Origin: an uncultured Intrasporangium sp. | GTDB lineage: Bacteria > Actinomycetota > Actinomycetes > Actinomycetales > Dermatophilaceae | Direction of reading: 5' to 3' | Length of the DNA stretch: 18,502 bases | NCBI GenBank assembly: GCA_937873285.1 | Contig: CALMNV010000335.1 | Coordinates: forward strand, 1 to 18,502 | Shown: positions 11,245 through 14,115 of the stretch, piece by piece | How the letters are laid out: each line of letters starts with the position of its first letter | Numbering within the stretch: the stretch's first letter is position 1 | Position numbers and translations under genes: made by a program | Notes under the pieces: generated by a model | What the model saw: the letters and a program-made list of their open reading frames with translations, nothing else | Databases searched by the model: none | What the model was told of the DNA's origin: nothing

Positions 11245-12651
11245 TCAGGGGGCCAGGCGGTGCAGGTCTCGCGGGAAGAGCGTCACCTCCCTGATGTTCT
11301 GCGCGCCGACGAGGCGCGCGACCCAACGCTCGAGCCCGATGGCGAAGCCGCCGTGAGGAGGCATCCCGGAGCGGAAGGCCTCCAGGTAGCCGGCATACGG
11401 CTCGACGGCCTGTCCGGTGCGCGCCAGTGCCGCCTCGTAGTCGCTCGGCCGGTGCAGCCGCTGCCCCCCGGTCGTCAGCTCGAGCCCGCGGAAGAGCAGG
11501 TCGAAGCTGTTGGACCAGCGCTCGTCGCCCGGTGAGGGATGGGTGTAGAACGGGCGCTTGGCGAGCGGGTAGCCCTCCACCGCGAGGAAGTCCGAGCCGT
11601 ATGCCGCCGACGCCCACTCGCTGAGGGCACGCTCGTCAGCGGGGCGCAGGTCGGGCTCGTCGGGGTCCGCGCCGACGCGGGCCAGCGCCTCGCGGAAGGA
11701 GATGACGGGCAGCTCCGAGGGCACCCGCGGCAGGCGCACCTCGAGCAGCGCGACGGACTCGGCGGCATCCGTCCGGATGGCCTCGAGCATCCCGGCGAGG
11801 GCGTCGCGCAGCACGGCGAGGACGTCCCGATGGTCCCGGATGAAGGCCAGCTCGGCGTCGAGCGAGGTGTACTGCGCGAGATGGCGCACCGTGTCGTGCG
11901 GCTCGGCGCGGAACACCGGGCCGATCTCGAAGACCCGCTCGAAGACGCCGACGAGCATCTGCTTGTAGAGCTGCGGCGACTGGGCGAGGAAGGCGGGGCG
12001 CCCGAAGTAGTCGACGGTGAAGACGTCCGCCCCCGACTCGGTCGCCGCGCCGACGAGCTTGGGCGTGACCACCTCGGTGAAGTCCAGCCCGGTCAGCGCC
12101 TCGCGGAAGCCGCGCATGGAGGCGCTCGCCAGCGCCCACGCCGCGCGGTGCCGCGGGTGGCGCAGGGTCACGGCCGCGTGGTCGAGGATGGTGGGCAGCC
12201 CGGCTCCGAGGCGCGGCCGCCACAGCTCGGTCGGCGGGGCGGCGGCGGGCTCGGTCAAGGCGGTGACGGTGGGGTCGACGAGCTCGGCTCCCCCTGGTCC
12301 GGCGGGATGGTGGCGCACCGTGCCGAGGACCTCGACGACGGTCTCCTCGGGCAGCGACAGCAGCTCGCGCGCCGTGGCGGGGTCGCGCACGACGACCTGG
12401 GTGAGCCCGGATCGGTCACGCACGACGAGGAAGCTGACGCTGGCGAGGGTCCGCCGGCGGTGGACCCAGCCGCGCAGGAGCGCTCGGGCGCCGTCGGGCA
12501 GCGACGCCAGGTCGGCGGCGAGGGTGCGAGGCAGGCGGCCGGACGCTGGCGCGACGGGCTTGGCCGGGGTGGTCGGGGTGATCGGGGCGGTCGGCGTGAT
12601 CGGGGCAGTCGAGGTGGTCGGGGCGGTCGAGGTGGTCGAGGTGGTCGGCAC
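11245..12651 (-). CDS. aspS: Archaeal-type aspartyl-tRNA synthetase (probably Asp-tRNA(Asp/Asn) ligase)
   Basis: A 468-residue class II synthetase. A Thr/Pro-rich extension (about 1-35) precedes an OB-fold anticodon-binding domain (about 40-135, starting LLRGWVHRRRTLASVSFLVVRD). The catalytic core has motif 2 in FRAEPHDTVRHLAQ (247-260) and motif 3 in GFAIGLERWVARLVG (435-449). It is short and lacks the GAD insertion of the ~600-residue bacterial AspRS, so it is the archaeal-type enzyme. The His in GWVH (residue 64) is the residue type reported for non-discriminating enzymes that also charge tRNA-Asn; this is suggestive only. I start at GTG 12651 because GGAGG lies 5 bases upstream. That Shine-Dalgarno is buried in the T-box described separately. 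Whether a bacterial-type AspRS exists elsewhere is unknown. Confidence 0.93.
   Translation of the reverse strand: MPTTSTTSTAPTTSTAPITPTAPITPTTPAKPVAPASGRLPRTLAADLASLPDGARALLRGWVHRRRTLASVSFLVVRDRSGLTQVVVRDPATARELLSLPEETVVEVLGTVRHHPAGPGGAELVDPTVTALTEPAAAPPTELWRPRLGAGLPTILDHAAVTLRHPRHRAAWALASASMRGFREALTGLDFTEVVTPKLVGAATESGADVFTVDYFGRPAFLAQSPQLYKQMLVGVFERVFEIGPVFRAEPHDTVRHLAQYTSLDAELAFIRDHRDVLAVLRDALAGMLEAIRTDAAESVALLEVRLPRVPSELPVISFREALARVGADPDEPDLRPADERALSEWASAAYGSDFLAVEGYPLAKRPFYTHPSPGDERWSNSFDLLFRGLELTTGGQRLHRPSDYEAALARTGQAVEPYAGYLEAFRSGMPPHGGFAIGLERWVARLVGAQNIREVTLFPRDLHRLAP
12559..12645. repeat. Degenerate Thr/Ser/Ala/Pro codon repeats at the AspRS N-terminus
   Basis: Imperfect tandem units built on ACC, TCG, GCC and CCG codons encode residues 3-31 (units like TTSTAP and ITPTAP). 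Simple-sequence expansion gives a disordered tail that is not part of the synthetase fold. Confidence 0.6.
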
Positions 12652-12656
12652 GTGGT

Positions 12657-12811
12657 CCTCCGGGAGTGGTGAGCCCCGGAGGTGTGGGCGATGGGGAATG
12701 TCGCTGTGCCACCACACCTTCGCCGCGGGCGGAGCGCCCTCGGCCTCTGCTCCCTGCACGGCTCCGGATCGTCAGGCCCCTCTTCGCCGCAGGCCCGAGC
12801 CTACCGGAGCC
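12657..12811 (-). promoter_or_regulatory. Translational T-box riboswitch, tRNA-Asp type, in the aspS leader
   Basis: On the - strand the leader has the T-box parts in order. Stem I: GGCUCCGG (12811-12804) pairs with CCGGAGCC (12767-12760), and AGGCUC (12802-12797) with GGGCCU (12779-12774). The 3' internal loop GACGAU begins with specifier GAC (12773-12771), an Asp codon. A middle stem pairs GGAGC (12753-12749) with GCUCC (12735-12731). Antisequestrator: AGGUGUGG (12719-12712) pairs with CCACACCU (12687-12680), enclosing bulge UGGCACA (12711-12705; consensus UGGNACC) and stem GCGA/UCGC (12704-12701, 12691-12688). UGGC complements an acceptor end GCCA, i.e. discriminator G73, as in tRNA-Asp. 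Sequestrator: CCUCCGGG (12682-12675) pairs with CCCGGAGG (12664-12657), burying GGAGG 5 bases before the GTG. Its first three bases are shared with the antisequestrator, so the two folds exclude each other. Uncharged tRNA-Asp should therefore switch translation on. Confidence 0.85.
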
Positions 12812-12827
12812 CTCCTGCGAGGAGGGC
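12809..12827 (-). other. Strong short hairpin just upstream of T-box Stem I
   Basis: GCCCTCCT (12809-12816) and AGGAGGGC (12820-12827) form a perfect 8-bp stem with a 3-nt loop. It shares three bases with the 5' strand of Stem I, so the two compete. It may be a second terminator for acuC read-through or an extra fold of the leader. Confidence 0.45.
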
Positions 12828-12850
12828 GATCGGTGCTGGAGGCCGGAGTC

Positions 12851-12888
12851 CTGGCTCGGTCGGCCGACAAGTCCGGCGACCGAGCCAG
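12851..12888 (-). terminator. Hairpin terminator after acuC
   Basis: CTGGCTCGGTCG (12851-12862) and its exact complement (12877-12888) form a 12-bp stem with a 14-nt loop, 30 bases beyond the acuC stop. No U-tract follows. It should separate acuC from the aspS leader, though no clear aspS promoter was found between them. Confidence 0.65.
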
Positions 12889-12918
12889 AAGCGGCCGACC
12901 GACGCCTCGCCGGTGTGC

Positions 12919-14115
12919 TCAGTCGAAGTGGACGTCCAGGCCGTGCAGCGGGAAGACGGCCTGGCGGGTCGCCATGATGGCGCGGTCGACCTCACTGGCC
13001 GGGTCGTAGCCCATGTCCCAGGAGCGCCACCACAACGGTCCTTGCTCGTCGGTCAGGTCACCCATGCGTCCGGGACCCGGCCTCCCGCACAGCATCTCGA
13101 CGTGGTCGCGCCACGCCTGCGGCACCGGCACCGTGCAGCCGACCGGGGCATGCGCCGCGATCGCCGTCACGTGGGTCCAAGCACGTGGGACGACGTCGAT
13201 CACCTCGTAGCCGCCGCCGCCCAGGGCGACCCACCGACCCTCGCACACCTCGTGCGAGAGCCGGTGCAGGGCGTCCGCGGCCGCGCGCTGCGCGTCGACG
13301 GAAAGCGCGAAGTGCCCCAGGGGATCCTCCATGTGGGTGTCGCAGCCGTGCTGGGTGACGAGGACGTCGGGCCGGAAGCCGCGCACCAGCGGCACGACCG
13401 TGGCGTGGAACGCGCGCAGCCAGCCGGCGTCGCCCAACCCCGGCGGCAGCGACACGTTGACCGCCGAGCCCTGCGCCGTGGGGCCGCCGATGTCGGCGGG
13501 CCAGCCCGTGCCGGGAAAGAGCGCCCGGCCGGTCTCGTGCACCGAGATGGTCAGCACCCGGGGGTCGTCCCAGAAGATCCGCTCGACCCCGTCGCCGTGG
13601 TGGACGTCGATGTCGACGTAGGCCACCCGCTGCGCACCGTGCTCGAGCAGCCAGCGGATGCCGACAGCGGCGTCGTTGTAGATGCAGAACCCGGAGGCGT
13701 TGCGCGGCATCGCGTGGTGCAGGCCGCCGGCAAAGTTGACGCCGTGCTCGGTCTCGCCGGCCCAGACCGCGCGGCATACGTCCACGGTCCCGGCGACGAC
13801 CCGGGCGCTCGCCTCGTGCATCCCCTGGAACGCCGGGTCGTCCTCGGTGCCGAGCCCGTAGGCCGTGTCCGCCGAGTCGGGGTCGTCGGAGGCGTGGCGC
13901 ACAGCGGTGATGTAGTCGCGGTCATGGACACTCGCGATGACGTCGTCGGACGCCGGGTCGGCGCCGACCACCTCGACGCCCGGGGCATCGAAGACGCCGA
14001 GCGCCTCGCACAGCCGGGCGGTCAGGTCGAGCCGCACCGGGGACATCGGGTGCGACGAGCCGAAGTCGTACTTGGTGAACGCGGTGTCCCAGACGACCCT
14101 GACCTGGCTTGGCAT
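12919..14115 (-). CDS. acuC: AcuC-type histone-deacetylase-family protein
   Basis: A 398-residue class I/II HDAC-fold zinc deacetylase. Key residues visible are the His pair in LHHAMP (133-134), GFCIYND (142-148), zinc ligands Asp170 and His172 in DIDVHHGDG, Asp259 in GCDTHMEDPL, and the transition-state tyrosine in GGGGY (303). In Bacillus, AcuC deacetylates and so reactivates acetyl-CoA synthetase; the substrate here is unproven, although a GNAT acetyltransferase is encoded 0.8 kb away. I start at ATG 14115 (MPSQVRVVW). A TANNNT -10 (TAGCGT) ends 7 nt upstream and no Shine-Dalgarno is seen, which suggests a leaderless mRNA. It is divergent from the RCK gene, separated by 46 bp. Confidence 0.92.
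   Translation of the reverse strand: MPSQVRVVWDTAFTKYDFGSSHPMSPVRLDLTARLCEALGVFDAPGVEVVGADPASDDVIASVHDRDYITAVRHASDDPDSADTAYGLGTEDDPAFQGMHEASARVVAGTVDVCRAVWAGETEHGVNFAGGLHHAMPRNASGFCIYNDAAVGIRWLLEHGAQRVAYVDIDVHHGDGVERIFWDDPRVLTISVHETGRALFPGTGWPADIGGPTAQGSAVNVSLPPGLGDAGWLRAFHATVVPLVRGFRPDVLVTQHGCDTHMEDPLGHFALSVDAQRAAADALHRLSHEVCEGRWVALGGGGYEVIDVVPRAWTHVTAIAAHAPVGCTVPVPQAWRDHVEMLCGRPGPGRMGDLTDEQGPLWWRSWDMGYDPASEVDRAIMATRQAVFPLHGLDVHFD

Follow-up and report, generated by a model that had tools for sequence, protein, structure and literature searches.

A predicted Asp-specific translational T-box upstream of an archaeal-type aspS gene in an uncultured Intrasporangium

Introduction

T-box leaders are sorted into four classes, which the accessible part of PMC10482949 describes as class I, with a long Stem I and a Stem II; class II, with a long Stem I, no Stem II and specificity for glycine; class III, with a short Stem I, a Stem II and the specifier in an apical loop of 5-6 nt; and class IV, an intermediate form with a side bulge. 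Where Stem I is naturally truncated, Stem II is considered essential in the available portion of a review (PMC7583486). For Actinobacteria, the available text of PMC1262725 reports T-boxes upstream of ileS only, and in the accessible part of PMC2494555 the total for 12 actinobacterial genomes is 32 T-boxes, of which Symbiobacterium has 18, ileS being among the genes of the remainder. The same portion of PMC2494555 states that where Firmicutes hold several copies of a synthetase, only one has a T-box in 58% of cases, and a spare synthetase under T-box control is thereby a known pattern in that phylum. Extra AspRS genes are described in Actinomycetales by PMC4206432, in whose accessible text T-boxes appear only in reference titles, and TBDB ran a class II model of its own over Actinobacteria (PMC7778990, available part).

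The window analysed here is a stretch of 18,502 nt from an uncultured Intrasporangium sp. (assembly GCA_937873285.1, contig CALMNV010000335.1). A sequence-only reading had proposed that it carries an Asp T-box on an archaeal-type AspRS gene and that such an element may be undescribed. This agrees with the open literature, in which our searches turned up no account of an actinobacterial aspS under an Asp T-box; an unremarked TBDB entry is possible.

Results and discussion

Layout of the aspS leader

Judged from its sequence and that of its relatives, the leader on the - strand of the archaeal-type aspS gene is an Asp-specific, Shine-Dalgarno (SD)-sequestering T-box. Read 5' to 3', it comprises a short Stem I with GAC, a hairpin, an antisequestrator, an SD hairpin and a GTG start codon.

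12798..12803, - strand: -10-like box TAGGCT; TANNNT is conserved in position in short-Stem-I leaders
12758..12790, - strand: Stem I drawn as in relatives, from by-eye comparison, minimum free energy (MFE) folding and pair changes in relatives
12790-12786 / 12762-12758, - strand: Stem I outer helix, GCGGC / GCCGU, followed by a short inner helix and an apical loop with the specifier
12771..12773, - strand: specifier GAC, an Asp codon, predicted to pair with anticodon GUC; found in Stem I context in leaders
12722..12744, - strand: Stem III, GCCG-A-GGGCG / CGCCC-G-CGGC, abutting the antisequestrator
12680..12719, - strand: antisequestrator, whole
12719-12712 / 12687-12680, - strand: A1 helix, AGGUGUGG / A1' CCACACCU
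12711-12705, - strand: T-box bulge UGGCACA
12704-12701 / 12691-12688, - strand: A2 helix, GCGA / UCGC
12657..12682, - strand: sequestrator hairpin, CCUCCGGG (12682-12675) / CCCGGAGG (12664-12657)
12661-12657, - strand: SD sequence GGAGG, paired in the sequestrator
11245..12651, - strand: aspS, GTG start at 12651, 468 aa

The strings and positions that the sequence-only reading had given for A1, the bulge, A2, the sequestrator, the SD sequence and GAC were all recovered on the - strand, and its middle stem is likewise present, although it aligns with Stem III of the relatives and not with Stem II. Sequence and folding evidence together reveal two mutually exclusive helices: CCU of A1' is common to the antisequestrator and the sequestrator, the latter folds at -17.4 kcal/mol versus -14.4 kcal/mol for the former when each is folded alone, and the segment 12649-12720 folds with the sequestrator formed. 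The folding energy of the whole leader was rejected as evidence for a T-box, being no better than that of shuffled sequences (z -0.73; 41 of 200 shuffles are as stable or more so). Farther upstream, a strong hairpin at 12849-12888 (- strand), with a chance Rfam match, lies between a deacetylase-like gene and the promoter; it is perhaps the terminator of that gene, lacking a U-run.

Model matches and conservation in orthologous leaders

A covariance match to the Rfam T-box models on 12600-12930 had been named as a check on the sequence-only reading; this region gave none at E-values up to 10, and neither did the window. Relatives were therefore used as evidence, the ortholog set being the best 80 of 504 confirmed loci from a scan of genome contigs. 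RF00230 matched 12 of 15 ortholog loci chosen from these 80, in the leader and with E-values of 2e-19 to 3e-4. The gathering score (93) was passed by L111 at 94.4, with the 11 others below it; the match in L101 ends upstream of the antisequestrator of that leader, and L033, L054 and L097, all with a short Stem I, gave no match. The orthologous leaders are thus T-boxes by the standard model and the window has a shortened form. With the Rfam cut-off reached by only one of 12 loci, many leaders of this kind probably lack annotation.

Thirty leaders, among them L036, of the window's own family, went into model R2, from which the window and L032-L035 were left out. It matches the window at 12649-12720 (70.3 bits, E 2.6e-20), its next matches scoring 8.1 and 5.3 bits. 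In the genome searches described below, model matches of about 30 bits or less were taken as chance where none of the three query synthetases adjoined. Weak matches L150 (30.3 bits), L152 (29.7) and L153 (27.5) do adjoin an archaeal-type aspS, and L157 and L176 adjoin ileS; these low scores indicate that the search model also misses or underrates true members.

Of the best 80 of 504 loci, 79 carry an antisequestrator (75 by a first script, 79 after adding leaders overlapping the match). The remaining leader, L068, has no recognisable antisequestrator and, by eye, a doubtful GGUGGUACGUCC stretch at most. Among these 79 leaders the bulge reads UGGCACC in 69, UGGCACA in nine and UGGUACC in one, bearing out the earlier remark that the bulge of the window departs from the usual last C. 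GAC occurs in Stem I context in all 79, a figure for presence in context and not a blind count because the search pattern contained GAC; 40 hold it in the GAAGAC of a longer Stem I (L036 having been moved to this group) and 39 in an apical loop. Conservation of UGGC, GAC and both exclusive helices in orthologous leaders had been named beforehand as a check, and it was observed; with the R2 match, an antisequestrator in 79 of the best 80 of 504 leaders upholds the proposal of an Asp-specific T-box on an archaeal-type AspRS gene. Orthologs L101, L108 and L111, on contigs labelled Chloroflexi or Herpetosiphonaceae, are long-Stem-I Asp T-boxes on the same gene in which, by eye, bases downstream of A1' could pair with A2'/A1' in a strong hairpin, without direct cover of the SD sequence.

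Covariation was scored for the antisequestrator in a set of 39 leaders (37 distinct). Every cell of the A1 helix is paired (100%), and two of its eight pairs show both-side changes; in A2, 25 of 37 leaders lack pairing at the fourth position. Both the number of both-side-changed cells (6) and the covariation score of the antisequestrator exceed all 500 shuffles, 81 of which reach the same number of both-side-changed pairs, and slid registers show no both-side changes. For the sequestrator, 89.7% of cells are paired and both-side changes occur in two of nine pairs; cells and score again exceed all shuffles, 428 of 500 shuffles reach the pair number, and one slid register has three such pairs. 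The Stem I apical helix was examined in 18 leaders (17 distinct) picked among those with a short Stem I, the row of L056 being shifted by one base and giving a gap. In this helix 94.0% of cells are paired, and three of its four pairs show both-side changes; seven of 500 shuffles reach the pair number, none the score, and slid registers show none. By eye, the third pair of the outer Stem I helix is G-C, C-G or A-U across relatives. Stem I and A1 covary, the sequestrator less convincingly, in counts that are not of independent events because the sequences are related. Comparison thus establishes the conserved parts, the pair changes and the agreement of specifier, discriminator and gene, and we assign a probability of about 0.93 to the leader being a translational T-box that senses tRNA-Asp charging.

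Stem I and the predicted transcription start

The sequence-only reading had placed GAC in the 3' internal loop of a Stem I with an 8-bp base. GAC does lie in Stem I; the internal loop did not hold up, as relatives carry GAC in a 9-nt apical loop. The base itself, GGCUCCGG/CCGGAGCC, is a perfect 8-bp helix present in the window DNA, and in a longer RNA Stem I with this base reaches -24.7 kcal/mol versus -4.7 kcal/mol for the relatives' form; the base is part of the MFE structure of the 163-nt leader. A T-box built on it, with GAC in the 3' internal loop and a lineage-peculiar, class IV-like side bulge, would be a variant of the preferred explanation and not an alternative to it, and we consider it unlikely: the base was not seen in the relatives compared by eye, and its 5' arm lies upstream of the position-conserved -10-like box.

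A sigma-70 consensus promoter scan gave no hit. Of 40 short-Stem-I leaders, 37 have TANNNT between 8 and 42 nt upstream of their inner Stem I helix, 34 of these (the rows being related) at -19 to -25; within a same-length stretch 76-110 nt upstream, none of the 40 has it. In the window, TAGGCT at 12803-12798 places the mRNA start near 12790, and the 5' end of the aspS mRNA probably lies at about this position, directly at Stem I. RNA starting at 12791 or 12790 has the relatives' Stem I as its MFE structure, with GAC in a 9-nt loop and an inner helix that in the window is 2-3 bp only; starts at 12792-12796 or 12789-12788 give other folds. With a start at about 12790 the 5' arm (12811-12804) would not be transcribed because it lies upstream of the -10-like box, and the 8-bp base is thus present in the DNA and probably upstream of the transcription start.

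Absence of Stem II

The spacing between GAC and Stem III divides the best 80 of 504 loci into 10 leaders, including the window, with 22-24 nt and 70 with 39 nt or more, the Stem III call being poor in five of the long-spacing group (L089, L090, L101, L108 and L111). Short spacing coincides with a short Stem I in the window, L032-L035 and L037, and with the GAAGAC context in L038-L041; in the latter group L039 and L041 are matched by the full-length Rfam model. In short-spacing leaders the linker is 11-13 nt long, can form a marginal hairpin at most (best -1.0 kcal/mol) and is too short to hold Stem II, which is therefore absent.

This absence, together with the weakened inner Stem I helix of the window, is what might be expected of a decayed T-box that retains its antisequestrator and SD hairpin but has lost tRNA sensing. 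We regard decay as very improbable, as 10 of the best 80 of 504 leaders share the layout without Stem II and have GAC and the antisequestrator intact, and the six short members of those 10 also keep the -10-like box.

As in class III, Stem I is short and lacks the elbow-binding motif, an assignment resting on the predicted start. The specifier loop is apical; by standard pairs it has 9 nt against the 5-6 nt of that class, and non-standard pairs could shorten it. The Stem II of class III is missing from the window. The earlier assignment to the ultrashort actinobacterial class consequently does not simply apply, and by sequence the short element without Stem II would fit none of the four classes published in the accessible part of PMC10482949. 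We give even odds to a minimal, fifth kind of T-box, without an elbow-binding long Stem I or a Stem II and starting at the first transcribed bases. Under such a minimal kind, lacking either gripping part, tRNA-Asp would have to be held by anticodon-specifier pairing and its acceptor end alone; the internal loop of a two-tier Stem I (five bases versus one or two) could perhaps replace Stem II. The same gene family spans long and short Stem I, each with or without Stem II, and this range forms a natural series for the loss of T-box domains. With both parts absent, a conserved Asp T-box would be a test of the contacts that T-boxes really need.

Linkage to synthetase genes

Of 58 related genomes, 11 encode a protein close to the archaeal-type AspRS (65-100% identity). 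Model R1, which contains the window's own leader, gives strong matches (58 bits or more) in 18 of the 58, each directly upstream of an aspS; 11 precede an archaeal-type aspS and seven a bacterial-type aspS in genomes where an archaeal-type gene was not found (L139, L140, L164-L166, L170 and L171; family checked for L140). One regulator has thus served two unlike enzymes, and an SD-hiding arrangement was not discerned in these seven leaders. Nine of the 10 other genomes with the archaeal-type gene (G028 being the exception) hold a second, partial AspRS match without a strong T-box match, taken for a bacterial-type AspRS. G055 has a 37%-identical AspRS relative with no model match and no UGGNAC near its start. 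The T-box accompanies the archaeal-type AspRS at 79 of the best 80 of 504 loci and in 11 of 11 relatives.

In a sample of 296 genomes of the phylum, matches above 50 bits and AspRS at E 1e-90 or better co-occur in the same two genomes, one of them the window's own. In a sample of 345 genomes of the class, in which counts start from T-box model matches, 30 genomes gave a total of 31 places with E 0.01 or better. Archaeal-type AspRS adjoins 20 of these, bacterial-type aspS two, serS one and ileS one; six have none of the queried genes beside them, and one is unread. Among the 20, L138 lies at a contig end with a 109-residue AspRS match, and at L149:186-1502 (reverse strand) a GAC T-box precedes a divergent archaeal-type AspRS gene (37% identical to that of the window; NF003483, 481.2 bits). 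Another member of the class, L142 (reverse strand, leader upstream of 1469), has a serS T-box with, by eye, a long Stem I. This serS T-box carries UCC at the specifier place and a UGGC bulge, and its gene matches TIGR00414 at 362.6 bits; two ileS matches carry UGGU. These serS and ileS matches provide a built-in specificity control for the aspS element.

These observations also bear on whether the leader could be a classical transcription attenuator, or a set of chance hairpins in a GC-rich leader where many are possible. That explanation has a negligible probability: a scan for terminator-like sites found none, the leader is conserved, and UCC is found on serS. We count it as refuted by the RF00230 matches in orthologs and the R2 match in the window.

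The synthetase and its tRNA

The aspS product scores 505.7 bits against NF003483 (cut-off 353), identifying an archaeal-type AspRS, and 330.9 bits against TIGR00458, below the cut-off of 368.4; its closest solved structure is 1n9w, the non-discriminating T. thermophilus AspRS2. Two sites of AspRS exclude tRNA-Asn, and we take them to be His and Pro in the non-discriminating type. Placed by eye on structure-match alignments, both residues are present in the window AspRS; of the 80 orthologs (the best 80 of 504 loci), 78 have the His and 79 the Pro, so that the archaeal-type AspRS is probably non-discriminating. A search at E 1e-60 found no AsnRS in 38 relatives, a control search being positive in 11 of 14 known genomes. 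An AspRS that is probably non-discriminating, in genomes without an AsnRS match, would serve both tRNA-Asp and tRNA-Asn, and of the two tRNA-Asp alone would be sensed. The enzyme of the window also has an N-terminal extension of about 40 residues (12530-12651, - strand), low in complexity and rich in Thr, Pro, Ala and Ile (PTTSTTSTAP...).

Of 38 relatives searched for a tRNA-Asp pattern, 36 gave a match, the window's own genome and G038 being the two without; the own assembly, 58% complete, gave 14 tRNA matches with Asp absent among them. All 30 tRNA-Asp(GUC) genes read in relatives, one in each of 30, have G73, and UGGC is complementary to the GCCA end of these G73 tRNAs. The sequence-only reading was right that UGGC fits discriminator G73, but not in treating it as an independent signal for Asp: the tRNA-Asn of the own genome also has G73, so that UGGC fits Asp and Asn alike. 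The bulge cannot separate the two, and the specifier GAC alone therefore decides.

Proposed mechanism and comparison with known systems

The T-box should control aspS at the level of translation; from sequence we infer tRNA binding, the direction of the switch and the transcription start. When uncharged tRNA is absent or Asp-tRNA-Asp is present, CCUCCGGG would pair with CCCGGAGG, hiding the SD sequence and leaving aspS silent. As uncharged tRNA-Asp (GUC, G73) builds up, its anticodon would bind the GAC of the Stem I loop, and its GCCA end would base-pair with the bulge UGGC. A tRNA-Asp bridging GAC and UGGC would stabilise the antisequestrator, whose A1' arm would retake CCU from the sequestrator, exposing the SD sequence and allowing AspRS to be made.

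The translational ileS T-boxes of Actinobacteria (class III, as on ileS of Nocardia farcinica) resemble the window element in having an SD sequestrator instead of a terminator, a UGGN bulge with A1 and A2, and a short Stem I without the elbow-binding motif and with the specifier in an apical loop. They differ in responding to Ile rather than Asp (GAC and UGGC here, UGGU in the ileS matches) and in their gene, here aspS. According to the accessible part of PMC10482949, their loop has 5-6 nt, versus 9 nt by standard pairs here, and they require the Stem II that is absent here. Class II T-boxes (glyQS) share with the window the absence of Stem II and a single-stranded linker, but in the same part of PMC10482949 they have a class I-like long Stem I, are glycine-specific and are generally transcriptional. 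RF00230 carries a long Stem I and a Stem II, neither of which the window T-box has. In C. acetobutylicum, a T-box reportedly lies on AspRS/GatCAB genes (available portions of PMC4206432 and PMC2494555); that organism is a Firmicute, whereas the window has a single gene with SD sequestration. In both, the regulated AspRS is one of several AspRS genes and the setting is one of tRNA-dependent asparagine formation. The type of switch is known, and it is the absence of both tRNA-gripping parts that seems to set the window element apart.
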